Source: Apibacter sp. B3706 (GTDB lineage: Bacteria > Bacteroidota > Bacteroidia > Flavobacteriales > Weeksellaceae). From it: a stretch of 64,000 bases of DNA. Position numbers and translations under genes: made by a program. The notes beneath the pieces were generated by a model, which searched no databases, was not told the origin of the DNA, and worked only from the letters and a program-made list of their open reading frames with translations. The stretch spans positions 62,001 through 126,000 of the forward strand of contig NZ_CP049715.1 in NCBI RefSeq assembly GCF_011082725.1, in the 5' to 3' direction. Below, piece by piece: positions 10,194 through 55,712 of the stretch; position 1 is the stretch's first letter; every line of letters starts with the position of its first letter.

Positions 10194-10224
10194 TGTGGAA
10201 AATAAAAGCTTATTAGAGAAAAAT

Positions 10225-10554
10225 ATGAATTGGATCTTGTTAATTATCGGCGGTTTGTTTGAAGTCGGATTTACCTTTAGTTTAGGGCAAGCAAAAAATT
10301 CTCAAGGAAATGCCGTATACTATTGGTATATCAGTTTTTTAATTTGTATGATTTCGAGCATGTTATTGTTGATTAAGGCTTCTCAAACCCTTCCGTTAGG
10401 TACAGCTTATGCAGTATGGACCGGTGTAGGAGCAGTGGGCACAGTATTGTTAGGAATATTTGTTTTTAAAGAACCGGCAACCTTTTGGAGAATATTTTTT
10501 ATAATTACTCTGGTTAGCTCCATAGTAGGCCTTAAATTTGTATCTAATCACTAA
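10225..10554 (+). CDS. SMR family transporter, Gdx/SugE-like subtype
   Basis: A 109-residue four-helix small multidrug resistance protein that works as an antiparallel dimer exchanging protons for a cation. E13 is the conserved binding glutamate (MNWILLIIGGLFE). The AYAVWTGVGAVGT segment and the ending IVGLKF are typical of the Gdx/SugE subtype, known to export guanidinium, rather than the EmrE subtype. Starting at the ATG at 10225 gives normal family length; the upstream GTG at 10195 would add an atypical hydrophilic tail and lies before the predicted transcription start. Guanidinium as the substrate is inferred from subtype motifs only, and I see no guanidine riboswitch in the short leader. 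Confidence 0.9.
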   Translation: MNWILLIIGGLFEVGFTFSLGQAKNSQGNAVYYWYISFLICMISSMLLLIKASQTLPLGTAYAVWTGVGAVGTVLLGIFVFKEPATFWRIFFIITLVSSIVGLKFVSNH

Positions 10555-12726: not shown

Positions 12727-12730
12727 TTTG

Positions 12731-12812
12731 TACGGATGAAGGGAATCGAACCCCCACGCCTCACGGCACTAGATCCTAAGTCTAGCGTGTCTACCAGTTC
12801 CACCACATCCGC
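12731..12812 (-). tRNA. tRNA-Leu (anticodon UAG)
   Basis: The 82-base gene folds as a class II tRNA. The acceptor arm is GCGGATG with CATCCGT and discriminator A. The anticodon stem is CTAGA/TCTAG around loop CTTAGGA, giving anticodon TAG, which reads CUN leucine codons. There is a short variable arm (GTGCCGTGAGGC) and a T-loop TTCGATT. The CCA end is not encoded. A TATATTTG box lies about 18 bases upstream and a terminator about 5 bases downstream. A degenerate copy of its 3' end and terminator lies 2 kb away at 10659-10720. Confidence 0.97.
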
Positions 12813-13192: not shown

Positions 13193-13200
13193 TATATTTG
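13193..13200 (+). promoter_or_regulatory. Predicted -7 box of the nuoE-M operon
   Basis: TATATTTG, an exact TAnnTTTG match, with a weak TTTTC near -33. Transcription would start near 13207, 15 bases before the nuoE ATG. It shows that the operon really begins with nuoE and rules out the TTG at 13198 as the start codon. Confidence 0.6.
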
Positions 13201-13221
13201 CAACCTAACATTAAAATAAAA

Positions 13222-13752
13222 ATGACTAAAAACGGTGTAAGCCCTGATAAAGAGATAGTTTTTAGCAGCGAATCCTTAAATAAAGTACATGAAATAATTG
13301 CAAGATATCCGGAAGGTAAGCAAAAATCTGCTTTAATTCCTGTGTTGCATTTGGCTCAAAAAGAATTTGGAGGATGGCTAGATGTCCCTGTTATGGATTA
13401 TGTGGCTTCTTTATTAAATATTTCACCAATAGAAGTATATGAAGTAGCTACTTTTTATACAATGTTTAATATGCAGCCTGTCGGAAAATATGTGTTGGAA
13501 GTATGTAGAACCGGTCCATGCATGTTAAATGGAAGCGATCAAATCATAGAACATATTAAAGAAAAATTGCAGATAAAAGAAGGAGAAACAACCGCAGATG
13601 GTATGTTTACTCTAAAACCGGCAGAATGCTTAGGCGCTTGCGGGTATGCCCCTATGATGCAAATTGGTAAATTTTATCATGAACATCTGACAAAAGAAAA
13701 AGTAGATGAAATCATTGACCTTTGCAGGGCGGGAAATATTGCAATTGATTAA
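13222..13752 (+). CDS. nuoE: NADH-quinone oxidoreductase subunit E
   Basis: NuoE is the 24-kDa-type subunit of the NADH-dehydrogenase arm of complex I and carries the [2Fe-2S] cluster N1a. In the 176-residue protein the four ligands are C95 and C100 (CRTGPC) and C136 and C140 (ECLGACG). The N-terminal helical region (PEGKQKSALIPVLHLAQ) packs against NuoF. I take the ATG at 13222 as the start because the upstream TTG at 13198 lies in the promoter. It is the first gene of the operon; nuoA-D, which usually precede it in Flavobacteriia, are not present upstream. Confidence 0.96.
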   Translation: MTKNGVSPDKEIVFSSESLNKVHEIIARYPEGKQKSALIPVLHLAQKEFGGWLDVPVMDYVASLLNISPIEVYEVATFYTMFNMQPVGKYVLEVCRTGPCMLNGSDQIIEHIKEKLQIKEGETTADGMFTLKPAECLGACGYAPMMQIGKFYHEHLTKEKVDEIIDLCRAGNIAID

Positions 13753-13783
13753 ACAATAAGTTAGAAGCATATATTATAATATA

Positions 13784-15115
13784 ATGAGTAAAAAATTATT
13801 GCTTAAAAATATTGATGTAGAAGGAATAAAAACTTTTGAAGTTTTTAGAAAGCATGGAGGCTACACTGCAGCGGAAAAAGCCCTTAAAATGACTCCTGAT
13901 GAAATTTTGGAAGAAGTTAAGACCAGTGGACTTAGAGGGCGTGGAGGTGCCGGATTTCCTACGGGGTTGAAATGGAGCTTTTTGGCTAAGCCGGAAGGAG
14001 TGCCGCGCTATTTAGTGGTTAATGCAGATGAATCAGAGCCGGGAACTTTTAAAGACCGATATTTAATGGAATATATACCTCATCAATTAATAGAAGGTAT
14101 ACTTATTTCATCTTTTTGTTTAGGAGCCAACGTTTCCTATATATATATACGAGGAGAATATTCTTGGATTCCCGAGATCTTAGAACACGCAATACAAGAA
14201 GCAAAAGCCAATGGCTTTTTAGGTAAGAATATAAAAAATACAGGATATGATCTGGAAATTTATGTTCAACGCGGTGCAGGAGCTTATGTATGCGGAGAAG
14301 AAACCGCATTGTTGGAATCTTTAGAAGGAAAACGAGGTAATCCTAGATTGAAGCCACCTTTTCCGGCCGTTAAAGGGTTATACCAATGCCCTACCGTGGT
14401 TAATAACGTAGAAACCATTGCAACTGTACCGGCTATTATTTCCATAACCGGAGCAGAATATGCTAAAATGGGAGTAGGAAGATCTACGGGGACTAAATTA
14501 ATTTCCGCTTGTGGAAACTTGAATAAACCGGGAGTATATGAAGTTGACTTCAATTTAAGTATAGAAGAATTTATTTTCAGCGAAGAATATTGCGGAGGAA
14601 TACCTAAAGGTAAAAAATTGAAAGCCTGTATTCCGGGTGGATCATCAGTTCCTATTTTACCCGCTAAATTATTACTAAAGACAGCTAACGGCGAAACCCG
14701 TTTGATGAATTACGAAAGTATGGCAGATGGAGGGTTTATTACTGGAACAGCCTTAGGTTCAGGTGGATTTATAGTGTTAGATGAAGACCAGTGTATAGTA
14801 AGACATACGATGACTCTGGCGCGTTTTTATAATCATGAAAGTTGTGGACAATGTACACCTTGTCGCGAAGGGACCGGATGGATGTACAGAATACTAAAAA
14901 AAATAGAAGAAGGACGGGGAACATACGACGATATCGATTTGCTATGGAATATACAAAGTAAGATAGACGGTAATACGATATGTCCTTTAGGAGATGCAGC
15001 GTCCTGGCCGGTTGCAGCAGCTATTAGACATTTTAGAGATGAGTTCCAATGGCATATAAATAATCCAGAATGTTTAACAAAAAATTATGGTATAGCTGAA
15101 TATGCAACTATTTAA
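13784..15115 (+). CDS. nuoF: NADH-quinone oxidoreductase subunit F
   Basis: NuoF oxidises NADH via FMN and passes electrons to cluster N3. The 443-residue protein shows the FMN-binding GLRGRGGAGFPTGLKW (49-64), the NADH-binding GAGAYVCGEETALLESLEG (about 165-183) and the N3 ligands C353, C356 and C359 in SCGQCTPCREG plus a cysteine near 398 (NTICPLGD). Length is normal. It follows nuoE by 31 bases, and its 3' end overlaps the next gene by 14 bases, which suggests translational coupling. Confidence 0.97.
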   Translation: MSKKLLLKNIDVEGIKTFEVFRKHGGYTAAEKALKMTPDEILEEVKTSGLRGRGGAGFPTGLKWSFLAKPEGVPRYLVVNADESEPGTFKDRYLMEYIPHQLIEGILISSFCLGANVSYIYIRGEYSWIPEILEHAIQEAKANGFLGKNIKNTGYDLEIYVQRGAGAYVCGEETALLESLEGKRGNPRLKPPFPAVKGLYQCPTVVNNVETIATVPAIISITGAEYAKMGVGRSTGTKLISACGNLNKPGVYEVDFNLSIEEFIFSEEYCGGIPKGKKLKACIPGGSSVPILPAKLLLKTANGETRLMNYESMADGGFITGTALGSGGFIVLDEDQCIVRHTMTLARFYNHESCGQCTPCREGTGWMYRILKKIEEGRGTYDDIDLLWNIQSKIDGNTICPLGDAASWPVAAAIRHFRDEFQWHINNPECLTKNYGIAEYATI

Positions 15116-15932
15116 CAAAAGTAATTTATTGTTTTTATTAGCAATATTTACAATTGGTGCAGTAGATGCCCAAGAACAAGAAAAGAACAAAAGAAAAGCC
15201 CACAGAAAAGGTGAAGTATACGCCTACTGGGGTTGGAACCGAGCCTATTATGGAAGGTCATCCGTCCATTTCACAGGTAATGATTATAATTTTACCCTAC
15301 ATGGAGTAAAAGGCGATGATAAGCCGATTGGCTGGAATTTTCACGATTTTTTAGACCCAACCAGAGTAACGATACCTCAAGTAAATTATAGAATCGGTTA
15401 TTTCTTCAAAGATAACTGGGCAGTTTCTTTAGGTATGGATCATATGAAATATGTAGTTAGACCGGGGCAATGGGTTAAATCAACAGGAACAATTAACACT
15501 CCCGGATATGAGGATGCAATCGTTGACGGAGAATACATTTATTTAACTGATGATTTTTTACATTTAGAACATACTGACGGTCTAAATTACTTGAATGCAG
15601 AAATAGAATATTATCACAATTTCATAAGCTCCGGCTTTTTTAAATTTAATAGTATAGCAGGAGGAGGTTTAGGATTGCTGATCCCAAAAACCAATGCAAC
15701 TATAATGAATAATGAAAGACATGATAAATTTCATTTAGCAGGATGGGGGGTAGATGCAAAAGTGGGAGCAGAATTGCTGTTCTGGGATCTTTTTTTCCTT
15801 AGAACAGAATTAAAAGAAGGAGTTATATCCATGCCGGATATTAGAACAACATCCAATAGTTCAGATAAAGCTTCTCAAAATATTTTGTATCTCCAATGGA
15901 ATTACACATTCGGATTCAGTTGGCATTTTTAA
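15102..15932 (+). CDS. Predicted exported outer-membrane beta-barrel-like protein inside the nuo operon
   Basis: A 276-residue protein with a clear signal peptide (hydrophobic NLLFLLAIFTIGAV, likely cut after VDA at residue 23). The mature part alternates aromatic and polar residues in beta-strand fashion (GEVYAYWGWNRAYYGRS; VNYRIGYFFKDNWAVSLGMD; ILYLQWNYTFGFSWHF) and ends in phenylalanine, as outer-membrane barrels often do. I do not know its function; it is not a complex I subunit. It overlaps the end of nuoF by 14 bases and lies 24 bases before nuoG, so it must be co-transcribed with complex I. A similar gene at this place in related Flavobacteriia is possible, but I cannot verify it. Confidence 0.75.
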   Translation: MQLFNKSNLLFLLAIFTIGAVDAQEQEKNKRKAHRKGEVYAYWGWNRAYYGRSSVHFTGNDYNFTLHGVKGDDKPIGWNFHDFLDPTRVTIPQVNYRIGYFFKDNWAVSLGMDHMKYVVRPGQWVKSTGTINTPGYEDAIVDGEYIYLTDDFLHLEHTDGLNYLNAEIEYYHNFISSGFFKFNSIAGGGLGLLIPKTNATIMNNERHDKFHLAGWGVDAKVGAELLFWDLFFLRTELKEGVISMPDIRTTSNSSDKASQNILYLQWNYTFGFSWHF

Positions 15933-15956
15933 TGCACCAAGATATATTAAAATCTA

Positions 15957-16949
15957 ATGAACGAAGAACCAAATAAAATAAAAGTAACAATAGATGGAAT
16001 TACTGTAGAAGTAAATCCAGGGATTCCAATTGTAGAAGCAGCACGACAAATAGGAGGAGCCTCTGTTCCGCCTACTATGTGCTATTATAGTAAATTGGAA
16101 GGAAGTGGGGGACGTTGCCGCACTTGTTTGGTGGAAGTGACTAAAGGATCAGAAAAAGATCCACGTCCTATGCCTAAGTTAGTACCGGCTTGTCGTACCA
16201 ATGTAATGGATGGTATGGAAGTTAAAGTTATTACTTCTGAAAGAGTAATACAAGCCGTACAAGGAGTTACAGAATTTTTATTAATTAACCATCCTTTAGA
16301 TTGTCCTATATGCGACCAGGCAGGAGAATGTAAACTTCAGGATTTGGCTTATGAGCATGGGTTGGATAAAACCCGTTCTGAATTCCCAAGAAGAACTTTT
16401 CAATCCGATGATTTAGGACCGTACATAAAATTAAACATGAACCGATGTATTCTTTGTGCAAGATGTGTATTAGTTGCCAATCAACTTACCGACCAAAGAA
16501 ATCAAGGGATACTATTCAGAGGAGATCATGCGGAAATAAGTACATACATAAGCAAAGCTATTGAAAATGATTTTTCAGGAAACATGATCGATGTTTGTCC
16601 GGTAGGAGCTTTAACAGATAGAACCGCTCGATTTAAAAGTAGAGTTTGGTTTACAGAACCTGTAAATGCAACTTGTACTTGTGAAAAATGCAGCGGCAAA
16701 GCAGTATTATGGATGAAAGGAGATACCATTATACGGGTAACAGCGCGAAAAGATGCATACAATGAAGTAGAAGAATTTATATGCAATGATTGTCGATTTG
16801 AAAGAAAAGACCTGAATTATTGGAATATAGAAGGTCCTGCCCATATCAGCGATCATTCTGTAATTTCGGTAAATCATTACGAATTACCATTACCTAAAAA
16901 TGATCCGCATTATAAAATCGAAAAATTTAAAGCTAAAACATTAGAATAA
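15957..16949 (+). CDS. nuoG: NADH-quinone oxidoreductase subunit G, short form
   Basis: NuoG carries several iron-sulfur clusters of the NADH arm. This 330-residue version has the ligands of the [2Fe-2S] cluster (C42, C54, C57, C79), of the His-ligated cluster (H112, C116, C119, C125) and of the next [4Fe-4S] cluster (C164, C167, C170, C214). It also has a CTCEKC motif (240-245) and CNDC (about 276-279) for an extra cluster. The large molybdopterin-oxidoreductase-like domain of the 900-residue proteobacterial NuoG is absent. As far as I recall the short form is usual in Flavobacteriia, so I do not regard it as truncated. Confidence 0.93.
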   Translation: MNEEPNKIKVTIDGITVEVNPGIPIVEAARQIGGASVPPTMCYYSKLEGSGGRCRTCLVEVTKGSEKDPRPMPKLVPACRTNVMDGMEVKVITSERVIQAVQGVTEFLLINHPLDCPICDQAGECKLQDLAYEHGLDKTRSEFPRRTFQSDDLGPYIKLNMNRCILCARCVLVANQLTDQRNQGILFRGDHAEISTYISKAIENDFSGNMIDVCPVGALTDRTARFKSRVWFTEPVNATCTCEKCSGKAVLWMKGDTIIRVTARKDAYNEVEEFICNDCRFERKDLNYWNIEGPAHISDHSVISVNHYELPLPKNDPHYKIEKFKAKTLE

Positions 16950-16959
16950 TATATATAAT

Positions 16960-18009
16960 ATGTGGTTTACAGTAGTATTGGTAGTTATTTTATTTGCGTT
17001 GTGTTTAGGAGCTGCAGCTTATGAAACCTTAATGGAGCGAAAAGTAGCAGCCTTTTTACAAGATAGAATAGGACCCAATAGAGCAGGAATATTTGGTTTA
17101 ATGCAACCTTTATGCGACGGAGGAAAACTTTTTTTCAAAGAAGATTTTGTTCCAAAAAATGCAGAAAAATGGTTGTTTATCATATCACCGGGAATATTAA
17201 TGCTAATAGCATTAAGCACAGGAGCAGTGATTCCTTGGGGAAAATCTTTATTTATAGCAGGAGAATCTCATTTAGTTCAAGTAGCAAACATTGATGTAGG
17301 AGTTCTGTATATAATGGGTATTGTATCCATCGGAGTATACGGAATCATGCTGGGAGGTTGGGCTTCCAATAATAAGTATTCATTGTTAGGGGCTATAAGA
17401 GCTTCTTCACAAATGATCTCTTACGAGTTGGCTATGGGATTATCCCTTCTTTCAATCATTATGATGACAGGAACATTGGATTTAAGAGCCATGGTAGAGC
17501 AACAAGCTTCCAACTTATACGGATTATCATTTTTAAATGGTATGGCTTGGAATGTATTTTATCAACCCTTAGCATTCGTATTGTTCGTTACCTGTTCGTT
17601 TGCAGAACTAAACAGAGCCCCTTTTGATTTGGCAGAGTGTGAATCCGAGCTGATCGGAGGTTATCATACAGAATACGGATCCATGAAATTCGGTACATTC
17701 CTTTTTGCTGAATATATAAACATGTTTATTAGTTCAGCTTTAATAAGCACTCTATTTTTTGGAGGTTACAGCTTTCCGTTTATGAATGAATTGGCCAAAA
17801 ACGGAACACTCGGAGAAAATGCAATAGGAATTATAAGTATAGTAGCATTTTTAATAAAAATAGTCTTTTGTATATTCTGTTTTATGTGGGTAAGATGGAC
17901 ATTACCTAGATTCAGATACGACCAATTAATGCGTTTAGGTTGGAGAGTCATGATACCTTTGTCCATTCTCAATTTATTAATAACTGCTACTATAGTAGTA
18001 TTTGGCTAA
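16960..18009 (+). CDS. nuoH: NADH-quinone oxidoreductase subunit H
   Basis: NuoH is the membrane subunit that forms the quinone-binding chamber with NuoB and NuoD and links redox chemistry to proton pumping. The 349-residue protein has about eight transmembrane helices and the conserved ERKVAAFLQDRIGPNRAG segment (26-43), the FAELNRAPFDLAECESELIGGY loop (about 219-240, with the key glutamates) and the WVRWTLPRFRYDQLM C-terminal signature. Its partners NuoB and NuoD are not encoded in this window. Confidence 0.97.
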   Translation: MWFTVVLVVILFALCLGAAAYETLMERKVAAFLQDRIGPNRAGIFGLMQPLCDGGKLFFKEDFVPKNAEKWLFIISPGILMLIALSTGAVIPWGKSLFIAGESHLVQVANIDVGVLYIMGIVSIGVYGIMLGGWASNNKYSLLGAIRASSQMISYELAMGLSLLSIIMMTGTLDLRAMVEQQASNLYGLSFLNGMAWNVFYQPLAFVLFVTCSFAELNRAPFDLAECESELIGGYHTEYGSMKFGTFLFAEYINMFISSALISTLFFGGYSFPFMNELAKNGTLGENAIGIISIVAFLIKIVFCIFCFMWVRWTLPRFRYDQLMRLGWRVMIPLSILNLLITATIVVFG

Positions 18010-18043
18010 AATAAAGAAAAAAGTAAAGAAAGAAATTAAATTT

Positions 18044-18586
18044 ATGCAGAGGCTTACCAATAAATCTAAGATAATTTCAAATAAAGAAATGACCTTAAAA
18101 GAAAAGATATATCTTCCTGCAGTATTAGGAGGTATGAAAATCACTTTTAGTCATTTTTTCAAAAAACCGGTTACCACTTCATATCCAGAAAAGAAAAGAG
18201 AGTTTAGTCCTGTATATAGAGGCAGACATGTACTCAAAAGAGACGATGAAGGAAGAGAGCGTTGTACAGCTTGTGGATTATGTGCATTAGCCTGTCCGGC
18301 TGAAGCCATTACAATGGTTGCCGCTGAAAGAAAGCGAGGAGAAGAACACTTATATAGAGAGGAAAAATATGCTGAAAACTATGAAATAAACATGTTACGA
18401 TGCATATTTTGCGGAATGTGTGAAGAAGCATGTCCTAAAGAAGCCATATTTCTTACTGACCGTTTAGTAATGCCGGAACATTTACGCAAAGAATTTATCT
18501 ACAAGAAAGATAAGCTTGTAGAAAGCATGGACAATAGAATAGACGTTTCACAAAGGCAAATAAAAAAATATACGGTAGAAAAATAA
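18044..18586 (+). CDS. nuoI: NADH-quinone oxidoreductase subunit I
   Basis: NuoI holds clusters N6a and N6b that carry electrons to NuoB. Two ferredoxin motifs are clear: CTACGLCALACP and CIFCGMCEEACP. I prefer the ATG at 18044 (MQRLTNKSKIISNKEMTL), giving 180 residues and the usual N-terminus. The reading frame extends to a TTG at 18002 overlapping nuoH by 8 bases, which would add a lysine-rich tail (AKIKKKVKKEIKF), and this cannot be excluded. It is tightly packed between nuoH and nuoJ. Confidence 0.94.
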   Translation: MQRLTNKSKIISNKEMTLKEKIYLPAVLGGMKITFSHFFKKPVTTSYPEKKREFSPVYRGRHVLKRDDEGRERCTACGLCALACPAEAITMVAAERKRGEEHLYREEKYAENYEINMLRCIFCGMCEEACPKEAIFLTDRLVMPEHLRKEFIYKKDKLVESMDNRIDVSQRQIKKYTVEK

Positions 18587-18591
18587 AGAAT

Positions 18592-19086
18592 ATGGAAGCA
18601 ATTTTGTTTTATTTAATATCTGCTAGTGCAATTGTGAGCGCATTATTTGTTGTATTCAGTAAAAACCCTATGTACAGCATCATTTCATTGATCATAACCT
18701 TTTTTTCCATATCAGGTTTATATATAATGTTAAATGCTCAATTTTTAAGTGTAGTTCAAATTATAGTTTACTCCGGAGCCATTATGGTTTTATTCCTATA
18801 TGTGCTCATGATGTTGAATTTGAAAGAAAAAGACGAGCCATTAAAAGGAAGTGCTTTTCGAATTTTGGCAACCATATGCGGAGGATTAGTATTCATTGGA
18901 TTTATTGGAGCATTAAGAGGATATCAACAAATAGATTTTCCTACGAATCCCGACAGTCAAATTGGATTAACTAAAAATTTAGGACACTTATTATTTAGTC
19001 AATACGTATTACCCTTCGAATTAGCTGGGATTCTATTTTTAGGTGCATTAGTTGGTGCAGTTATGATAGGAAAAAGAGATTTATAA
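18592..19086 (+). CDS. nuoJ: NADH-quinone oxidoreductase subunit J
   Basis: A 164-residue membrane subunit with five hydrophobic helices. The segments VVFSKNPMYSIISLIITF (about 20-37) and QIIVYSGAIMVLFLYVLMML (about 56-75) are the NuoJ signatures; the latter contains the pi-bulge helix that gates coupling between the redox and pump modules. It is 5 bases after nuoI and 32 bases before nuoK. Confidence 0.96.
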   Translation: MEAILFYLISASAIVSALFVVFSKNPMYSIISLIITFFSISGLYIMLNAQFLSVVQIIVYSGAIMVLFLYVLMMLNLKEKDEPLKGSAFRILATICGGLVFIGFIGALRGYQQIDFPTNPDSQIGLTKNLGHLLFSQYVLPFELAGILFLGALVGAVMIGKRDL

Positions 19087-19118
19087 AAAAATATTTATTT
19101 TCTTGAAACAAAAAAGAA

Positions 19119-19442
19119 ATGGTTAACAGTTTATTACAAAGTATACCGGTAGATTATTTTATATACTTATCCGCATTACTATTTTGTATAGGAGTAACAG
19201 GAGTATTAGTAAGAAGAAATGCAATCATAATTTTAGGATGTGTGGAGCTGATGTTGAATTCAGTGAATCTATTGTTGGCAGCATTTTCTGCCTACAAAGG
19301 AGATGCAGACGGTCAAATATTAGTATTTTTTATTATGGTTGTGGCAGCAGCCGAAGTTGCAGTAGGATTAGCCATCATAACCATGATGTATAGAAATACA
19401 CGATCTGTAGATGTTAGCTTATTTAATAGATTAAAAGGATAA
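19119..19442 (+). CDS. nuoK: NADH-quinone oxidoreductase subunit K
   Basis: A 107-residue three-helix antiporter-like subunit. The conserved glutamate pair lies in [17 protein letters not shown] (E38 in helix 2) and [12 protein letters not shown] (about E76 in helix 3). It ends 3 bases before the nuoL start codon. Confidence 0.97.
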
Positions 19443-19445
19443 GAA

Positions 19446-21338
19446 ATGGAGAATATAATATATTTAATACCAATTTTACCACTTATAGGATTTATTATTT
19501 GTGGAATTTTTGGAAGTAAAATGCCTAAAACGGCAGTAGGAACAATTGCTAATCTTGCTGTTTGGATACCTTTTTTTCTATCCGTATATTTATTTTGCAC
19601 GTTTACAGAACCCGTTAAAGCATCCCTGTTTAATTGGTTTGCAGTTGACGCTTTAAAAGTTAACTTTTCCTTTCAAATAGATCAATTATCCTTAGTGATG
19701 ATGATGATTGTTACAGGAATCGGATCTTTAATTCATCTGTATTCCATTGGATATATGCATGAAGATAAAGGCTTTTATAAATTCTTTTCTTATTTAAATC
19801 TCTTTATATTTTCCATGCTCTTGTTAGTAATGGGAAGTAATTTCTTAATACTATTTATAGGATGGGAAGGAGTAGGATTTTGTTCCTATTTACTTATTGG
19901 CTTCTGGTATACCAATAAAGAATATGGATATGCTGCCAGAAAAGCATTTGTAATGAATAGAATAGGAGACTTAGGGCTCTTAATAGGAATATTCATGTTA
20001 TTTTATTACTTTGGAAGTGTAGAATACTCCGACATAGCAGCTAAAGCCCATTTATTTAAATTAAATGACCCTATATTAATTACAGCTACTGTATTTCTAT
20101 TCATAGGAGCTATGGGTAAATCTGCTCAAATACCACTTTATACATGGTTACCTGATGCGATGGCAGGGCCTACACCGGTTTCTGCATTAATTCACGCCGC
20201 TACCATGGTAACAGCAGGTATTTATATGATTATCAGATCCAATGCCATTTATAGTTTAGTGCCGATTACTCTGGACTTTATCATGTATATTGGTTTAGCT
20301 ACTTCTATACTCGCAGCATTCATCGGATTAAGACAGAACGATATAAAGAAAGTGTTGGCTTATTCAACAGTTTCACAACTGGGACTAATGTTTACCGCTT
20401 TAGGAGCAGAAGCTTACACTACTGCTTTATTCCATGTAATCACTCACGCATTCTTTAAAGCTTTATTATTTTTAGGTGCGGGTAGTGTTATTCATGCGAT
20501 GAGTGGAGAACAAGATATGAGATACATGGGAGGATTAAGAAAAAAAATCCCGGTAACTTATTGGACATTCCTAATTGGAACATTAGCTATTTGCGGAATA
20601 CCACCTTTAGCAGGGATGTTTTCTAAAGACGAAATTTTAGTAGCACTTTGGACTAAAAACAAAATTATTTGGGGACTTACCTTGTTCTCAGCTGCTTTAA
20701 CCTGTATATATATGTTTCGCTTACTATTCCTTACATTCTTTGGAGATTTCAAAGGTACTGAGGAGCAAAAGAAACATTTGCATGAAAGTCCGGCTATAAT
20801 GACCATACCTTTATTGGTTTTAGCTTTATTAACCGTTGTAGGCGGAGGAATAAACTTACCTCATTATTTAGGAGAAGGAATTTCTCAAAAATTGTCGCAT
20901 TGGTTGCATCCTATTTATGTAGGTTTACCTATACATCAAGAACCTTCTTTAGGTACTGAAATGATGTTACTAGGAATAACTTTAGCTGTAATAGCTGTTG
21001 TAGCCCTTGTTACCTACAACAAATATGTTACCCGAAAAGTACAGGCAACTATTGTAGAAAATATGACCGGATGGGAAAAATTTTCAGCACATGCTGCTTA
21101 TATCAATGAATTTTATAATGAAGTTATTGTTAATCCGGTTTTAAACTTAGGAAAATTTCTGAAAAATATAGTTGATAAATATATAGTAAACGGAATAGTA
21201 GAAGGAACAGCAAAAACAGTTAAGGGATGCGGAAGTGTCCTTAGACTAATACAAAACGGAAATGTAGAATTTTATGTATTTGCAATGTCCTTGGGAATAT
21301 TCATATTATTATTAGTTGCAGAATTTTTAAGTCATTAA
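19446..21338 (+). CDS. nuoL: NADH-quinone oxidoreductase subunit L
   Basis: NuoL is the distal Mrp-type proton-pumping subunit with the long lateral helix. The 630-residue protein shows the usual sequences LFIGWEGVGFCSYLLIGFW (about 137-155), the lysine helix KSAQIPLYTWLPDAMAGPTPVSALIHAATMV and RQNDIKKVLAYSTVSQLG, and a C-terminal extension. The N-terminus is hydrophobic with a plain ATG start. It follows nuoK by 3 bases and precedes nuoM by 27. Confidence 0.97.
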   Translation: MENIIYLIPILPLIGFIICGIFGSKMPKTAVGTIANLAVWIPFFLSVYLFCTFTEPVKASLFNWFAVDALKVNFSFQIDQLSLVMMMIVTGIGSLIHLYSIGYMHEDKGFYKFFSYLNLFIFSMLLLVMGSNFLILFIGWEGVGFCSYLLIGFWYTNKEYGYAARKAFVMNRIGDLGLLIGIFMLFYYFGSVEYSDIAAKAHLFKLNDPILITATVFLFIGAMGKSAQIPLYTWLPDAMAGPTPVSALIHAATMVTAGIYMIIRSNAIYSLVPITLDFIMYIGLATSILAAFIGLRQNDIKKVLAYSTVSQLGLMFTALGAEAYTTALFHVITHAFFKALLFLGAGSVIHAMSGEQDMRYMGGLRKKIPVTYWTFLIGTLAICGIPPLAGMFSKDEILVALWTKNKIIWGLTLFSAALTCIYMFRLLFLTFFGDFKGTEEQKKHLHESPAIMTIPLLVLALLTVVGGGINLPHYLGEGISQKLSHWLHPIYVGLPIHQEPSLGTEMMLLGITLAVIAVVALVTYNKYVTRKVQATIVENMTGWEKFSAHAAYINEFYNEVIVNPVLNLGKFLKNIVDKYIVNGIVEGTAKTVKGCGSVLRLIQNGNVEFYVFAMSLGIFILLLVAEFLSH

Positions 21339-21365
21339 TTAAAATACAAAAAGTAAAAAGATATA

Positions 21366-22838
21366 ATGTTAACTTTAGCAGTACTACTTTTACCAATCAT
21401 AGGATCAGGCTTATTATTTGCCTTAAAAGGGAATATTTCAAAATATATAGCATTTATAATTGCAATATCCGAATTGGTATTAACCGCTATTATATGGTGT
21501 AATTTCAAAGCAGATTCAGGAATTCAGTTTGAATTTGGAAAAGAGTTGTATTTTTCACCGATTAAATCTACGTTACATTTCGGAGTTGACGGATTAACTG
21601 TCCTAATGCTTCTATTAACCAATGTATTAACGCCAATTATACTTTATTCATCATGGAACGATGAACGCCCTTCCGGCTTTTATGCATTAATTTTATTAAT
21701 GCAATTTGGATTAGTGGGTATTTTCTCTTCCTTAGATGGTTTAATGTTTTATGTATTTTGGGAAGTAACTTTAATTCCTATTTGGTTTATATGCGGAATT
21801 TTTGGAACAGGTGAAAACAGATTGAAAATAAACTATAAATTTTTTATTTATACTTTTTTTGGATCTTTATTTATGCTTGTTGCACTAATATATGTTTACT
21901 TGCAAGCGGGATCATTTGACTTAAATGCCTTATATGCAGTTAAAATTCCTGCACAAGCTCAAACATTCATTTTTTGGATGTTTTTCTTAGCATTTGCAAT
22001 CAAATTACCCATATTTCCTTTCCACACTTGGCAAGCAGATACCTATACAATGGCTCCTACCCAAGGCTCCATGCTATTATCCGGTATCATGCTTAAAATG
22101 GGAGTATTTGGAATCATAAGATATTTATTACCTCTTTCACCTGAACCGGTAGGAGGAACTTCCGGTTCCATAGCCTTAATTTTATCAATTATTGGAATTG
22201 TATATGCATCTTTAATCGCTATCGTTCAAAAAGATATTAAGCGACTAATTGCTTTCTCTTCAATGGCACACGTGGGACTTATTGCTGCAGGTATATTTGC
22301 AAGTGCAATCGTATCCATGCATTGTGGTATTGATAGTACCGGTATTGAAGGAGCCTCAATTCAAATGTTGGCACACGGAGTTAATGTGGTCGGTTTATTT
22401 TATGTAGCGGATGTATTAATTAAAAAATTCGGCACCAGAGATTTAAGTAAAATGGGAGGATTAGCATCTAAAGCTCCATTTTTAGCTGTTTTATTTATGA
22501 TAATCTCTGTTGGAACTATGGCTGTTCCGTTAACCAATGCATTTATAGGTGAATTCCTTTTATTGAAAAGTATTTTTACATTAAGCATTTGGGGAGCAAT
22601 TATAGCCGGATTAACCTTAATCTTATGTGCCGTTTATATTACCAAAATGTACGGAATGTCAATGTTTGGTAAAGGAAATCAAGAATTTTTAGAAGGTCAG
22701 AAAGATATTAATTTACAAACTAAATTAGGATTGATCGTAATAGCGGCTTTAATTATAGTTTGTGGAATTTATCCTCAACCCCTATTATCATTATCTTCAG
22801 AAACGGCTCAACACATAGTATCTCTTTTAGTTAAATAA
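21366..22838 (+). CDS. nuoM: NADH-quinone oxidoreductase subunit M
   Basis: NuoM is the second large antiporter-like pump subunit. The 490-residue protein has HFGVDGLTVLMLLLTNVLTP, the conserved glutamate in FYVFWEVTLIPIWFICG (about 127-143), KLPIFPFHTWQADTYTMAPT and KDIKRLIAFSSMAHVGL. It is the last gene of this operon. nuoN, which normally follows, is not found: the next 400 bases hold no long reading frame and the next gene is ruvB. Confidence 0.97.
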   Translation: MLTLAVLLLPIIGSGLLFALKGNISKYIAFIIAISELVLTAIIWCNFKADSGIQFEFGKELYFSPIKSTLHFGVDGLTVLMLLLTNVLTPIILYSSWNDERPSGFYALILLMQFGLVGIFSSLDGLMFYVFWEVTLIPIWFICGIFGTGENRLKINYKFFIYTFFGSLFMLVALIYVYLQAGSFDLNALYAVKIPAQAQTFIFWMFFLAFAIKLPIFPFHTWQADTYTMAPTQGSMLLSGIMLKMGVFGIIRYLLPLSPEPVGGTSGSIALILSIIGIVYASLIAIVQKDIKRLIAFSSMAHVGLIAAGIFASAIVSMHCGIDSTGIEGASIQMLAHGVNVVGLFYVADVLIKKFGTRDLSKMGGLASKAPFLAVLFMIISVGTMAVPLTNAFIGEFLLLKSIFTLSIWGAIIAGLTLILCAVYITKMYGMSMFGKGNQEFLEGQKDINLQTKLGLIVIAALIIVCGIYPQPLLSLSSETAQHIVSLLVK

Positions 22839-22840
22839 GT

Positions 22841-22868
22841 TACTTGATCAATAAGTAGCAATTTTTCT
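22841..22868 (+). terminator. Candidate terminator of the nuo operon
   Basis: Inverted arms TACTT and AAGTA (22841-22845 and 22853-22857) flank a TTGATCAA palindrome just after the nuoM stop and are followed by a short T-run. The stem is weak. Confidence 0.3.
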
Positions 22869-22963
22869 AATAGTTGTAATTTTCGGGTTAGTTTAAAAAA
22901 TTTAACATTTTGAAATTTGGCAGATATTGATGATATAAATTCATTTCTATTGATAATTTTACT

Positions 22964-23086
22964 ATGAAAATGAGTGATAAATGTGAAAAATTTGGAAAAA
23001 GACTATTCCAAGAAATAAATCATTTATTATTCATATCAATTGTTGTTGAAATTTATCTTCCTTTTATTATTTACAAAATTATTTAG
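22964..23086 (+). CDS. Possible 40-residue membrane peptide
   Basis: ATG to TAG encodes MKMSDKCEKFGKRLFQEI followed by a hydrophobic stretch (LLFISIVVEIYLPFIIYKII). A charged head plus one transmembrane-like helix is plausible for a small membrane protein, but random AT-rich DNA also gives such frames. There is no homology that I recognise. Confidence 0.2.
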   Translation: MKMSDKCEKFGKRLFQEINHLLFISIVVEIYLPFIIYKII

Positions 23087-23251
23087 CTAATTAAAGCATA
23101 AAATGTTTTTTTATTTCCAATTTCTAATCTAAAATTAGAGATTAAGAAACTATCATCTTTAAGAAAAGGAAGAAAATAATTCAAAAATTGTAAATAATAA
23201 TTTTAAAGTTGTTTACTTTTTATATTTCTCCAGAAGTTTTAAATTTACAAA

Positions 23252-24277
23252 ATGTCAGATTTATTAGATCCGGATAAGAATAAATATTCAAAAGAAGATA
23301 TCGCTCAAGAAGAGCAGGTGCGTCCTAAAAGTTTTTACGAATTTGTAGGTCAATCTCATATTATGGATAATCTGGAGATTTTTGTAAAGGCTGCCAAATT
23401 AAGACGCGAATCTTTGGATCATGTATTACTACACGGTCCTCCGGGGCTAGGTAAAACTACTTTAGCTAATATCATTGCAAATGAATTAAATGTTGGAATA
23501 AAAATCACTTCAGGGCCTGTATTAGATAAGCCCGGTGATCTGGCAGGTTTATTGACCGGATTGGAAGAAAATGATGTACTGTTCATTGATGAAATCCATA
23601 GGCTTTCTCCCATAGTTGAAGAATACTTGTATTCAGCCATGGAAGATTATAAAATAGACATAATGATTGAAAGCGGGCCCAATGCTCGATCAGTTCAAAT
23701 CAATTTAAATCCTTTTACCTTAATTGGAGCAACGACCCGCTCGGGATTGTTAACAGCTCCGCTTAGGGCGCGTTTTGGAATTAACTTTAGATTTGAATAC
23801 TATCACACAGAATTATTAAGCAGTATTGTGGAAAGAAGTTCGCGCATAATGAATATGCCGATAGATACGAAGGCTGCTATAGAAATAGCTTCCCGTAGCA
23901 GAGGAACTCCGCGTATTGCCAATGCGTTGCTACGAAGAATCAGAGATTTTGCGCAAATTAAAGGTAATGGAAAGATAGATCTTACCATTTCTGAAATTGG
24001 TTTAGAAGCGTTAAAAGTAGACAAACACGGTCTAGATGAAATGGATAACAAGATTTTAAGTACCATTATTGATAAATTTAAAGGAGGACCGGTAGGATTA
24101 ACAACTATAGCAACAGCAGTAGGAGAAAATCCGGGAACTTTAGAAGAAGTATATGAACCTTTTTTAATTCAAGAAGGCTATCTTATGCGTACACCCAGAG
24201 GTAGAGAAGCAACTGAAAAAGCCTATAAACATTTAGGCAAAATAAAAATGCCGGGTAATCAATCTGAACTATTTTAA
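23252..24277 (+). CDS. ruvB: Holliday junction branch migration helicase RuvB
   Basis: RuvB is the hexameric AAA+ motor that drives branch migration with RuvA. The 341-residue protein has Walker A GPPGLGKT (62-69), Walker [10 protein letters not shown] (about 111-119), sensor 1 [18 protein letters not shown] (about 162-179) with the arginine finger region, and a C-terminal winged-helix domain ([26 protein letters not shown]). ruvA is not adjacent. The next gene starts one base after the stop codon. Confidence 0.98.
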
Positions 24278-24278
24278 T

Positions 24279-24611
24279 ATGAAATCCTATATCTATTTAT
24301 TTATAGCTATATGCTTAGAGACGGCGGGGACCTCTTTACTTCCGATGACTAAAGAATTTACTAAATGGAAACCAACAGTCCTTTTTTTTGCTCTCTTTTT
24401 TGCAGCTTTATATAGCCTGACTAAAGCCATTAGAGTCATACCAATCGGGATAGCCTATGCTATTTGGTCAGGAATAGGAATTGTATTAATAAGTCTTTCA
24501 GGCTATTTTTTATACAAACAAAAATTAGATATTCCGGCTATTATTGGAATCGTATTTATCATCATAGGCGTACTTATTATAAACCTATTTTCCAAAACAG
24601 CAGGACATTAA
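24279..24611 (+). CDS. SMR family multidrug transporter, EmrE-like subtype
   Basis: A 110-residue four-helix small multidrug resistance protein. The conserved binding glutamate is in AICLETAGTSLL (E14). The helix-3 sequence PIGIAYAIWSGIGIVLIS and ending IIIGVLIINLFSK are typical of the EmrE/Qac subtype that exports hydrophobic cations, unlike the Gdx-like paralogue at 10225-10554. It begins one base after ruvB and lies 18 bases before the dihydroorotase gene, so the three are probably one transcript. The drug range is inferred only from subtype. Confidence 0.9.
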   Translation: MKSYIYLFIAICLETAGTSLLPMTKEFTKWKPTVLFFALFFAALYSLTKAIRVIPIGIAYAIWSGIGIVLISLSGYFLYKQKLDIPAIIGIVFIIIGVLIINLFSKTAGH

Positions 24612-33678: not shown

Positions 33679-33743
33679 CATAAGTCGCTTTTAATGGGAC
33701 AATTATATTATAAATAAGTTTCATTCAATTGAAATCAATTATT

Positions 33744-35066
33744 ATGAATAAAATTATAGCAGTCTGTATGCTGACTCTCTTTACAAGTGTTTCTGTTTTA
33801 GCGCAGAAAGTAAATGGAGATGTAAAGAATGGAGAGAAATTATTCAAAGACAATTGTACCGCTTGTCACGCGTTAGACCGAAAACTTACAGGACCTGCAC
33901 TAAAAGGAATTGTAACAAAATTAACTGAAGAAGGCGCTGATGTAGAATGGATCCAAAAATGGATCATGAATAATGAAGCCTTAAGAAAAAGTGGAGATAA
34001 GCGTGCGAATAAAATCTTCGAAGAGAACAATCAAATTGCTATGGATGTTTTCGAAGGCAGATTATCAGTACAAAATATCGATGATATTTTAGCCTATCTT
34101 GAAAATCCACCGGCTCCACCGGAAGAAGCTGCTCCCGCCGTAGTTGAAAAGAAAACATCAAATGATCTTAACTATATTTTACTTTCCTTTGCCTCAATAG
34201 GGGTAATATTGATTTTTACCTTACTGAAAATCAACAAACTAGTAAAACTAAAAACTTCTAGCGCTGAATTATCAGAACTTGAATCTACAAGAATTAGAAC
34301 TTTTTCACAATTTTATGTACAATACAAAGGGGTCTTGTATGGATTGGTAACTTTACTATTGGCTTTATCTTTTTACGGAGTATGGGCTTGGTTGATGGGA
34401 ATAGGAGTCGATAAAGGTTATGAACCGGATCAACCTATTTATTTTTCACATAAAATTCATGCAGGAGAAAATAAAATCAATTGTCAATTGTGTCATTCCG
34501 GAGCAAAATATGGAAAAGTTTCCGAAATTCCTTCTCTAAGTGTATGTATGAATTGTCATAGAAATATCAGCGAATATACCGGAAAATATATCGAACCGGG
34601 CAAATCTAAAGAATTCTATACTGCTGAAATTAAGAAAATTTATGACCATATTGGTTGGGATGAAGAAAACCAAAAATACACAGGTAAACAAAAACCGGTG
34701 AAATGGGAAAGAATTCATAATATGCCGGATTTCGTATATTTTAATCACTCACAACACGTAGTGGCAGGAGAAAAAACAATAATAGCCGATTTCAATAAAA
34801 AGAACCCGAACCATCAAATTGACGTGGTATGTAAAGCCTGTCATGGTTCCATAGATACCATGAATGTTGTAAGAATGGCGAATGATTTCACAATGGGATG
34901 GTGTGTAGATTGCCACCGTACCACAGAAGTCGATATGACCAATGGATATAATGCAGCTTACTTCAATAAACTTCATGAAAAATTGAAGAAAGAATATGGA
35001 GAAGATAAATCTAAAATAACGGTAGATGCCATAGGAGGTTTAGAATGCGGTAAATGTCATTATTAA
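33744..35066 (+). CDS. actA: Alternative complex III subunit ActA, multiheme cytochrome c
   Basis: ActA is the pentaheme cytochrome of the quinol:cytochrome c/acceptor oxidoreductase known as alternative complex III. Here the 440-residue protein has six CxxCH haem sites. One is in an N-terminal monohaem domain (CTACH, about 38-42, following a signal peptide ending in VLAQ). It is followed by two transmembrane segments (about 143-165 and 197-218). The other five are in the C-terminal half: CQLCH, CMNCH, CKACH, CVDCH and CGKCH at the very end. Thus a cytochrome c domain is joined to the standard pentaheme unit. The start at 33744 gives a good signal peptide; the upstream TTG is not needed. Confidence 0.92.
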   Translation: MNKIIAVCMLTLFTSVSVLAQKVNGDVKNGEKLFKDNCTACHALDRKLTGPALKGIVTKLTEEGADVEWIQKWIMNNEALRKSGDKRANKIFEENNQIAMDVFEGRLSVQNIDDILAYLENPPAPPEEAAPAVVEKKTSNDLNYILLSFASIGVILIFTLLKINKLVKLKTSSAELSELESTRIRTFSQFYVQYKGVLYGLVTLLLALSFYGVWAWLMGIGVDKGYEPDQPIYFSHKIHAGENKINCQLCHSGAKYGKVSEIPSLSVCMNCHRNISEYTGKYIEPGKSKEFYTAEIKKIYDHIGWDEENQKYTGKQKPVKWERIHNMPDFVYFNHSQHVVAGEKTIIADFNKKNPNHQIDVVCKACHGSIDTMNVVRMANDFTMGWCVDCHRTTEVDMTNGYNAAYFNKLHEKLKKEYGEDKSKITVDAIGGLECGKCHY

Positions 35067-35092
35067 TTAATTAAAATCATCAGAAGATCATT

Positions 35093-38000
35093 ATGGCTTC
35101 AAAAGATAAAATAAAATTTAGGAGTTTAGAAGAATTACAAGATCCTTCACTACCAGAGAAATTAGCAGCAAATGAATTTGTAGAAGAGCTTTCTATCGAT
35201 GAATTTTTAGGAGATGATCAAGCAATGTATTCTACAAAAACTTCTCGAAGAGATTTCTTAAAATTCTTAGGTTTTGGAACAGCAGCTGTAACTTTAGCAG
35301 CCTGTGAAGCTCCAATTATTAAATCGGTACCTTATGTGGTTAAACCCGAAGGTATCATTCCGGGAGTACCCAGTTATTACGCCTCAACTCTTTACAATGG
35401 ATTTGACATTGCCAGTGTTTTAGTTAAAACAAGGGAAGGAAGACCCATTAAAATTGAAAGTAATAAAAATGCAGCCTTTTTTGGTGAAAGCACCGCCAGA
35501 AGTCAAGCTTCTGTTCTTTCATTATATGACAATAACAGAGCTAAAGCACCTAAACTGAATGGATCTGAAACTGATTGGAAATCATTAGATGAATATGTAA
35601 ATAAAGAATTACAGGCAGCTAAGGTTTCGGGTAAAAAGATTGTAATTTTAACACCATCTTTTCCTTCTCCCTCCACTAAAAAAATCATTGAGGATTTTAC
35701 AACCCTATTCCCAAGCACAGAACATGTCGTTTACGATGCGATTTCGTATTCACCGGCTTTAGATGCTGCTGAAGAAGTTTATGGAGTAAGAGCTTTACCA
35801 TTATATGATCTAACTAAAGTCGAATTATTGGTTTCTTTTGGTGCTGATTTTTTGAATGATTGGAATGGAGGGCATTTTGAGGCAGATTATGCGAAAGCCA
35901 AAACCCCGGGGAAAACTATGCTTAAGCATATTCAAATTGAACCCAATTTAAGTTTATCAGGGGCTAGTTCCGATGAAAGAATGCCGTTAAAACCTTCGGA
36001 AGTTCAAAAATTATTGGGCGAAGTGTACAAAGCATTGGATGGAACTTCTTCCAATCCTACTGCTCAAAAAATAGCTAAAGAACTCACAAAAAAAGGTTCA
36101 AAAGCGGTTGTATTTGCGGAAGGCGATAAATCAGCCTATGTGATAGCCAATCTGATAAATCAAAAATTAAATTCATTAGCAGTTAGAAAAGATAAAGTAT
36201 TATTGACTAAAGAATCCAATGATGCTCGTTTTTCGGAACTACTATCTTGGTTGTCAACCGGACAAGTTGGAGTATTACTTAACTTTAATACCAATCCGAT
36301 TTATTCATACTCAGAGGGAGAAAAACTGAAAGATTTATTTAAAAAGGTGAATTGTTCTGTATCTCTTTCAGAATATGAAAATGAAACAGCTTCTATATGT
36401 AAAGCCATTGCACCGGTTCCCCATTGGTTAGAATCATGGGGAGATTTAAATCCGGCAACAGGGGTTTACTTATTATCACAACCAACCATCCAAAGAATTT
36501 TTGATACACGTCAATTCCAAGATTCATTATTGGTTTGGAGGAATGCGGGATTACAAACAAATGCGGTTAAAGAAAATATCACAATTGCTCCCGTTGGTTC
36601 GACTCCTTCGGTTGATTCTTTAGCTACTCAATCTAAAAAAGATACGGTTCAAGATGCAACCACTCCGTTTAATTCTACCTATACTACTACAGCAACACCT
36701 CAGCAAACCAATGCTTATTATAATTATTTAAAACAATATTGGCAAACGCAGTTAGGAACTAAATTAGGTTATAGTTTTAATCAGGCTTTATATAATGGAT
36801 ACAATGAAACATCCGAAATTACAGAATTAAATGTAATCGGAGGAAATGCTGAACAGGCATTGTCTAACTTAGCAGCTATTAAAGCGGGAACATTTGAATT
36901 AAACTTATATCTTAAAACAGCTATTGGAGACGGAGTTCAAGCAAATAATCCTTGGTTGCAAGAGTTGCCGGATCCTATCTCTCGTCTAGCATGGGATAAC
37001 TATATTACAATTTCATTAGAAGATGCTAAACAATTAGGAATTAAGAATGAGACCAATGGCAGAATGCAATTGGATGGTTCCTTAGTAGATTTAACGGTTA
37101 ATGGAAAAGTAATAAAAAGTGTTCCGGCATTAATTCAACCGGGACAGGCTAAAGGATCGATTGGATTAGCCTTAGGTTACGGTCAATCAAAATCCGGAAA
37201 AGTTGGTCAAACCGGAATAAATGCCTATCCTTTTTATCTTAACTCTAATTTAATTCAATATAATATAACTATTAAACCGACTCAAGGAATTCATGAATTT
37301 GCGTCAATGCAAATGCAAGGCACCTTAATGGGCAGGTATGAAATAGCAAGAGAAGTTTCCTTAGATACTTTCTTAAACGAGGATCCTAAAAAATGGAATG
37401 AGCCGTTAAAAATGGATTCATACGTAGGAGAAGTTCCTATGAATAAAGTAGATCTATGGAGAGATTATGACAGTACAGACGGTCCACATTTTAACCTTTC
37501 AGTTGATTTAAATGCATGTACCGGATGTGGTGCTTGTATTATAGCATGTCAAGCCGAAAATAATGTTCCCGTAGTTGGAAAAGAAGAAATAAGGATGTCA
37601 AGAGACATGTATTGGTTACGGATAGACAGATATTATTCTTCTAAAAAGCAAATAGAGCAAAAAGAAGAAATTTTGGAAAATTTGGATCAAGTTCCTATGT
37701 ATAAGGAATTAATTGAGCCTAATCCAACTAATCCGGATGTAATTTTCCAACCGGTGATGTGTCAACATTGTAATCATGCACCTTGTGAAACGGTTTGCCC
37801 GGTAGCGGCTACCTCTCATGGAAAACAAGGACAAAATCATATGGCTTATAATCGATGTGTAGGAACACGCTATTGTGCCAATAACTGTCCGTATAAAGTA
37901 CGTCGTTTCAATTGGTTCAACTACGCGCTTAACAATAAGTTTGACTATAATATGAATAATGATTTAGGAAGAATGGTATTAAATCCTGATGTCGTTGTTC

Positions 38001-38284
38001 GTTCCAGAGGAGTCATGGAAAAATGTTCCATGTGTATACAAATGACTCAGGCTACCATCTTAGAGGCTAAAAAACAAGGCAGAAAAGTGGAAGATGGAGA
38101 ATTCCAGGTAGCATGTTCACTGGCTTGTTCTAGCGGAGCAATTAAATTTGGAGATATTAATGATCCTTCATCAGAAATTGCAAGGCTATCAAAAGATAAA
38201 AGGAAATATGTATTGTTAGAAGAAGTAGGTACAAAACCTAATGTATTCTATCAGCACAAAATTAGGAATAGAAAAGAATCATAA
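35093..38284 (+). CDS. actB: Alternative complex III subunit ActB, molybdopterin-oxidoreductase-like iron-sulfur protein
   Basis: ActB is the large periplasmic subunit of alternative complex III. The 1063-residue protein has a twin-arginine signal (TSRRDFLKFLGFGTAAV, about 48-64) ending at LAAC, a likely lipidation cysteine. It then has a large domain related to molybdopterin oxidoreductases, known from structures not to bind the cofactor. A C-terminal ferredoxin domain with four clusters follows: CTGCGACIIACQ (about 806), CQHCNHAPCETVCP (about 894), CVGTRYCANNCP and CSMCIQ with CSLACSSGA. The separate A and B domains of some relatives are fused here, as usual in Bacteroidota. Confidence 0.95.
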   Translation: MASKDKIKFRSLEELQDPSLPEKLAANEFVEELSIDEFLGDDQAMYSTKTSRRDFLKFLGFGTAAVTLAACEAPIIKSVPYVVKPEGIIPGVPSYYASTLYNGFDIASVLVKTREGRPIKIESNKNAAFFGESTARSQASVLSLYDNNRAKAPKLNGSETDWKSLDEYVNKELQAAKVSGKKIVILTPSFPSPSTKKIIEDFTTLFPSTEHVVYDAISYSPALDAAEEVYGVRALPLYDLTKVELLVSFGADFLNDWNGGHFEADYAKAKTPGKTMLKHIQIEPNLSLSGASSDERMPLKPSEVQKLLGEVYKALDGTSSNPTAQKIAKELTKKGSKAVVFAEGDKSAYVIANLINQKLNSLAVRKDKVLLTKESNDARFSELLSWLSTGQVGVLLNFNTNPIYSYSEGEKLKDLFKKVNCSVSLSEYENETASICKAIAPVPHWLESWGDLNPATGVYLLSQPTIQRIFDTRQFQDSLLVWRNAGLQTNAVKENITIAPVGSTPSVDSLATQSKKDTVQDATTPFNSTYTTTATPQQTNAYYNYLKQYWQTQLGTKLGYSFNQALYNGYNETSEITELNVIGGNAEQALSNLAAIKAGTFELNLYLKTAIGDGVQANNPWLQELPDPISRLAWDNYITISLEDAKQLGIKNETNGRMQLDGSLVDLTVNGKVIKSVPALIQPGQAKGSIGLALGYGQSKSGKVGQTGINAYPFYLNSNLIQYNITIKPTQGIHEFASMQMQGTLMGRYEIAREVSLDTFLNEDPKKWNEPLKMDSYVGEVPMNKVDLWRDYDSTDGPHFNLSVDLNACTGCGACIIACQAENNVPVVGKEEIRMSRDMYWLRIDRYYSSKKQIEQKEEILENLDQVPMYKELIEPNPTNPDVIFQPVMCQHCNHAPCETVCPVAATSHGKQGQNHMAYNRCVGTRYCANNCPYKVRRFNWFNYALNNKFDYNMNNDLGRMVLNPDVVVRSRGVMEKCSMCIQMTQATILEAKKQGRKVEDGEFQVACSLACSSGAIKFGDINDPSSEIARLSKDKRKYVLLEEVGTKPNVFYQHKIRNRKES

Positions 38285-38303
38285 AAATTTTAAGAAAGTT
38301 ACT

Positions 38304-39704: not shown

Positions 39705-40233
39705 GACAATTATTTACGGTTTATACGGAGATGATGATCTCCTTATAGATGGGGTTAAGCAACTTCGTGATAGAGGAATTGAAATTAATGAAGTTTATAC
39801 ACCTTTTCCGGTACATGGATTAGATAAGGCAATGGGATTAAAAGAATCGAGAATGTCTGAATTTGCTTTTTTCTATGGAGCTATGGGGTTAGCTGTTGCT
39901 TCTGTGCTTACTTGGTATACGATGAATTATGATTGGCAGCAAAATATAGGAGGAAAACCGAGTTTTACTTGGACAGAAAATATGCCTGCTTTTATTCCAA
40001 TTATGTTTGAGCTGACTGTATTTTTTGCCGCTCACCTTATGTCCATAACATACCTTATTTTAAACAAGCATTATCCGGGACAAAAAGCTCAAAATCCTGA
40101 TCCAAGGACTACCGATGATAAATTTTTAGTTGAAATTTCTAATCAAAATTACGACCAAGTAAAGGAAATTTTGATTGCTACAGGTGTTGAGGAAATAACT
40201 GTAAAAAAAATTGAAGATGAAAAAAATAACTAA
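39691..40233 (+). CDS. actD: Alternative complex III subunit ActD (DUF3341)
   Basis: ActD is a small membrane-associated subunit with an N-terminal soluble domain (YGLYGDDDLLIDGVKQL, about 9-25) and two transmembrane helices (about 68-90 and 104-126). The 180-residue length and sequence (VYTPFPVHGLDKAMG; SESRMSEFAFFYGAMGL-like) fit DUF3341. It overlaps actC by 14 bases and actE by 17, so translation is probably coupled. Confidence 0.93.
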   Translation: MSTTKTIIYGLYGDDDLLIDGVKQLRDRGIEINEVYTPFPVHGLDKAMGLKESRMSEFAFFYGAMGLAVASVLTWYTMNYDWQQNIGGKPSFTWTENMPAFIPIMFELTVFFAAHLMSITYLILNKHYPGQKAQNPDPRTTDDKFLVEISNQNYDQVKEILIATGVEEITVKKIEDEKNN

Positions 40234-40858: not shown

Positions 40859-40865
40859 TACAGCT

Positions 40866-55565: not shown

Positions 55566-55712
55566 AATTTTGTGAAATTAATAATTTTTATGTAAATATT
55601 ATGTTCATATTAAAACAAACTAAAATACTAAAATAAAAAATATTGGTTTAAGAAAAAATAACTATTTTTATCGATTAATAAATTTATTTTTTTTTTATAA
55701 ATTATAGGATGT

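Follow-up and report, generated by a model that had tools for sequence, protein, structure and literature searches.

Dispersed sets of complex I genes are known from Rickettsia, from Aquifex and, as ndh genes, from the cyanobacteria, and an 11-subunit complex I without NuoE, NuoF and NuoG is found for instance in Bacteroides; our control genome of this kind, Bacteroides ihuae, gave a NuoD match and no NuoE match. Closer to the genus studied here, Riemerella, Chryseobacterium, Elizabethkingia and Bergeyella carry a continuous nuoA-N operon. Among the literature matches listed, no paper was recognised as treating a split nuo set in Apibacter. The excerpts of PMC5913662 state that the strains "encode NADH dehydrogenase" and do not contain the terms nuo or synteny, the text of PMC12645872 does not contain nadh, nuo or complex I, and the excerpts of PMC3879981, on Aquifex, do not mention the dispersal of the nuo genes.

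We analysed a window of 64,000 nucleotides (C1:62001-126000 of a single contig of 2,297,680 bp) from an Apibacter genome, designated G000, in which a nuo block runs from nuoE to nuoM. According to the open reading frames and Pfam matches in the window, neither nuoA-D nor nuoN adjoins this block (13222-22838).

The nuoE-M block and the other five subunit genes

The block lies on the forward strand, as does the box TATATTTG (13193..13200), a TAnnTTTG motif of the flavobacterial sigma-A -7 box type located 29 bases upstream of the nuoE ATG. The first gene, nuoE (13222..13752; PF01257, 199 bits), is taken to start at the ATG at 13222, ORF calling offering a further TTG upstream at 13198, and is followed by nuoF (13784..15115; PF01512 and PF10589). 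A 276-aa reading frame, here called ORF x (15102..15932), separates nuoF from a short form of nuoG (15957..16949; 330 aa, identified by Pfam), after which come nuoH (16960..18009; PF00146, 397 bits) and nuoI (18002..18586; start codon uncertain), the latter assigned from its Fer4 domains and from its position and identity in relatives. The block is completed by nuoJ (18592..19086; PF00499), nuoK (19119..19442; PF00420), nuoL (19446..21338; PF00361 and PF00662) and nuoM (21366..22838; PF00361), all on the same strand. Upstream, a tRNA-Leu gene on the reverse strand (12730-12812) ends 380 bases before the box, and downstream 413 bases separate the end of nuoM from ruvB (23252..24277, forward strand; named from its translation), a neighbour outside the complex. 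The first-pass annotation had described nuoE-M in the normal order, an exact -7 box just before nuoE, about 380 bases and a tRNA upstream and about 410 bases followed by ruvB downstream; each of these points is borne out, every subunit having a match, while its otherwise correct gene list had omitted the 276-aa frame between nuoF and nuoG.

Two genes of the small multidrug resistance (SMR) family (PF00893) flank the nuo block, at 10195-10554 and 24279-24611 of the window. Further along, judged by translations only, the genes at 33729-42206 encode cytochrome c, molybdopterin/4Fe-4S and membrane proteins and resemble an alternative complex III operon, and a cluster of glycosyltransferase-, flippase- and polymerase-like genes at 47488-57128 is probably involved in the synthesis of a surface polysaccharide.

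A search of the whole genome for nuoA, B, C, D and N, as had been suggested at the first pass, located all five. The genes nuoABCD stand together and intact at C1:130573-133312 on the forward strand, 46 kb past nuoM (nuoB, C and D at L002:4977-7312), and nuoN is solitary at C1:552803-554197 on the reverse strand, flanked by an agmatine-deiminase-like gene on one side and a beta-propeller-like gene on the other. All five products, like NuoE-M, gave Pfam matches above cut-off; NuoA matched PF00507 with 107.8 bits and stayed below the NCBIfam equivalog cut-offs, NuoN matched PF00361 with 238.4 bits and TIGR01770 with 372.9 bits, above cut-off, and NuoD shared 97% identity with its Apibacter mensalis counterpart. 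As nuoABCD and nuoN sit on the same contig as nuoE-M, all 14 subunits are present, and the single-operon layout, which is typical of complex I without defining it, is replaced by three loci on one contig. Of the two possibilities raised at the first pass, the unusual split is thus the one that stands, and an enzyme working without the five subunits does not, all five having been found intact on that contig.

Each module of the enzyme is accounted for. The NADH module is represented by NuoE, NuoF and NuoG, all above the Pfam cut-off, the quinone module by NuoB, C and D of the nuoABCD locus together with NuoI of the window, and the membrane arm by NuoA, H, J, K, L, M and N. No internal stop was found in the 15 genes (14 nuo genes and x) compared in G058, G041 and G016, and the dN/dS values of the 14 nuo genes against G058 (0.005-0.070) indicate purifying selection. 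NuoB retains the motifs CC, GACASSGG and PGCPPRP when aligned to the Thermus subunit (2fug_6), and the cysteines in CC, GAC and PGC are presumably the ligands of the N2 cluster. The 330-aa NuoG is without the C-terminal molybdopterin-like part, its residues 6-287 aligning to the 75-kDa chain of complex I. In the loci where both genes are seen, the nuoG match ends at most about 310 bases from nuoH (about 1 kb in L060, the one exception), a spacing that leaves no room for the C-terminal part, so that the short NuoG looks general in those loci. Judged from its genes, this is an ordinary 14-subunit complex I in which only the arrangement of the genes is unusual.

ORF x had no Pfam, NCBIfam or PHROG match. 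Its AlphaFold model, built from 25 sequences, had a mean pLDDT of 84.7 and consisted mostly of beta-strands with a leading helix, and OmpA, OmpW and OprG were among its Foldseek matches, with low TM-scores. Together with a signal-peptide-like start, the model leads us to predict an outer-membrane beta-barrel. The gene was present in 80 of 120 family genomes and 20 of 33 genera, with one match per genome except for one genome with two partial matches. It occupies the position between nuoF and nuoG in Riemerella, Elizabethkingia, Kaistella, Epilithonimonas and Chryseobacterium loci, is absent from that position in the Bergeyella and Cruoricaptor loci, gave no match there in G188 and G189, and is located away from nuoD in G021 and G049.

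Gene order across the genus, family and order

The family sample comprised 60 genomes, 51 of which carry both NuoD and NuoE; a secondary match of G019 and four weak NuoE-like matches were left out. The two genes lie within 1.5 kb of each other in 47 of the 51, and the remaining four are precisely the sampled genomes of the same genus, so that every sampled family genome outside the genus that has both genes keeps them close together (47/47). These 47 include G003, where 844 bases with another reading frame separate nuoD from nuoE and the remaining nuo genes are scattered. Similarly, nuoM and nuoN adjoin in 37 of 42 genomes among the matches listed (55 genomes had a match), the exceptions being the same four and G003. 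In the order-wide sample, 34 of the 37 genomes with both genes have nuoD and nuoE no more than 1.5 kb apart, and the misses are G000 and the fragmented genomes G060 and G074, which have several NuoD-like and NuoE-like matches on different contigs; here the NuoD-like matches of ten genomes without a NuoE match and the secondary partial matches of G060 and G074 were left out.

The three-way split was present in all four same-genus genomes of the 60-genome sample (G000, G058, G016 and G041). When gene order was compared in close relatives, an approach already proposed at the first pass, the same three pieces, ABCD, E-M and N, were confirmed gene by gene in the DNA of the three other same-genus genomes, G058, G016 and G041. 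Besides, G199 (one contig) and G207 of the same genus have the E-M block without A-D or N within the 19.9 kb read. Of the nine same-genus genomes listed, the split was examined in these six, the other three being G214, G220 and G224. Two MAG genomes are consistent with the split as far as their contigs extend. In both G188 and G189 no nuoE is present in the 6-10 kb that come after the ABCD genes (L008 and L009); G188 has no nuoD in the 8 kb upstream of its E-M block and nuoN was not found in this MAG, and in G189 nuoN stands without an adjoining nuoM, although the E and M ends come close to contig edges.

The surroundings of the E-M block are partly shared. The gene ruvB follows nuoM in G058 and G041 and not in G016, and G058, G041 and G188 have a tRNA-Leu gene upstream of nuoE that is absent from the 2.1 kb read in G016. 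The Apibacter neighbourhoods were compared with the nuo flanks in ten other family genomes and with upstream flanks at five loci, and besides nuoA only three matches were obtained: two in the downstream flank of G001, one of them a ruvB homologue some 10.7 kb in, and one in G002.

A second broken nuo set was encountered in the family in the MAG G187 (the source of locus L013), in which the coordinates of nuoM and nuoN equal those of G003. Its broken loci are L013 9977-12496, L136 8738-11247 and L127 2589-8691. Here nuoA, B and C are spaced apart, with a YafQ-family reading frame between nuoB and nuoC, a 204-aa frame without a Pfam match lies between nuoD and nuoE, and the F-x-G series is interrupted by other frames. 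The genes nuoM and nuoN are on other contigs, that of nuoM being only 4.2 kb long, and nuoH-L were not located in the contigs of the MAG. As this set was broken independently, nuo operons broke more than once in the family.

Promoter-like boxes at the heads of the pieces

For Flavobacterium psychrophilum, the excerpts of PMC9723704 report TAnnTTTG as the -7 consensus of sigma-A. In six split-lineage genomes this motif occurs no more than 120 bases before nuoA, nuoE or nuoN in all 17 regions tested, regions that are related by descent (all three heads in G000, G058, G041, G016 and G189, and those of nuoA and nuoE in G188). The first-pass annotation had reasoned that a promoter type shared with genes found elsewhere would speak for a split operon, and at the level of the box the promoter type is shared. 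At nuoE, TATATTTG lies at -29 or -30 in all eight split-lineage genomes read (the six together with G199 and G207), the nearest box to nuoA and nuoN lies at -37 to -53, and the spacings of each head are kept across the genus.

Chance occurrence of the boxes was considered and rejected, the background in non-coding DNA being 0.16 per 113 positions per strand against 17 of 17 regions. In the 120 bases upstream of reading frames of at least 150 aa the box was present in 28 of 73 cases, the opposite strand giving 6 of 73. Being this frequent before genes, the box is to be regarded here as an ordinary promoter-type signal and not as the mark of a special shared regulator. As none of the three G000 boxes has a TTG 17-23 bases before it (the usual -33 distance), we treat them as putative promoters.

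Among the relatives, a box precedes nuoA in 46 of 47 loci, nuoE in one of 49 (at -95) and nuoN in one of 12, where the nuoM-nuoN gaps measure 29-177 bases; for nuoE the search covered just the intergenic sequence, up to 120 bases, of 49 loci that include L013. A single box thus stands at the head of the usual operon and each broken piece has its own, so that, as read from the DNA, a promoter-like signal precedes both orphaned segments, one that is missing from nearly all the relatives examined. Terminator-like hairpins were located 3' of nuoD and of nuoN; after nuoM none was scored, such sites being no more numerous there than in shuffled sequence.

Origin and meaning of the split

We consider it very likely that Apibacter has a standard complex I whose once-continuous nuoA-N operon was broken into three, each with its own box, and whose subunits assemble in trans. 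The operon would have broken, probably in the ancestor of Apibacter, into nuoABCD, nuoE-F-(x)-G-H-I-J-K-L-M and nuoN. The nuoABCD piece would have retained a TAnnTTTG box like that of the relatives, and both orphaned segments would have come to carry a box directly upstream. With a box at each head, transcription of each of the three probably depends on the housekeeping sigma factor, and their products would then assemble into an enzyme of normal activity. As the neighbours in G016 differ (no ruvB and no tRNA-Leu), the case for a single ancestral event is drawn from the pieces and the position of the boxes only.

The local view of the window, in which neither nuoA-D nor nuoN stands beside nuoE-M, might suggest a reduced or substituted complex I that runs on the nuoE-M block alone, a reading that has next to no probability given that all five genes stand intact on the same contig and under purifying selection. 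The same view could arise if a misassembly of this genome had separated a normal nuoA-N operon, and the rarity of the arrangement outside the genus is the one point in favour of that. The first-pass annotation had envisaged an independent assembly with nuoA-D directly upstream and nuoN downstream of the block as the sign of such an error; instead, three other same-genus assemblies carry the same three-way split, and two MAGs agree as far as their contigs allow. Shared flanks (ruvB after nuoM in two of these assemblies, and tRNA-Leu before nuoE in the same two and in G188) and the isolation of nuoE-M in both single-contig genomes, G000 and G199, point the same way. As independent same-genus assemblies agree, misassembly is excluded for practical purposes.

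Whether the split is adaptive is a question of another kind. Separate tuning of the quinone module, the NADH/membrane block and NuoN, for example to low gut oxygen, would accord with box-to-start distances that differ among the heads (nuoE at -29/-30, nuoA and nuoN at -37 to -53) and are kept across the genus, and with the microaerobic respiration ascribed to Apibacter in the excerpts of PMC5913662. However, all three heads carry the same housekeeping-type box, and a neutral break followed by promoter gain fits the data equally well, so that we regard adaptation as unlikely. Still more doubtful is the proposal of three independently controlled units with the barrel, whose gene stays between nuoF and nuoG in many relatives and was retained at that place despite the break, functionally tied to complex I or to its assembly.

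The broken operon of a standard complex I illustrates that operon-based calls of an "incomplete complex I" can be wrong, as nothing is missing here. Apibacter, a genus of gut bacteria, offers a clean natural experiment on the breakage of the operon of a large enzyme, with all examined members of the genus sharing the same pieces and, at each new head, a box that is absent in nearly all examined relatives.

Compared with the relatives that keep a continuous operon, Apibacter has the same 14 subunits in the same order within each piece, and the relatives likewise have TAnnTTTG before nuoA and, in many cases, x between nuoF and nuoG; what sets Apibacter apart are the three loci and the boxes of nuoE and nuoN, which nearly all examined relatives lack. 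The 11-subunit complex I belongs to the same superfamily, but the Apibacter genome differs from it in having NuoE, NuoF and NuoG along with all the others. As in the bacteria with dispersed sets, complex I would be assembled from several loci; unlike in those bacteria, the sampled Apibacter break is confined to one genus and to two cuts, so that the states before and after it are directly comparable.
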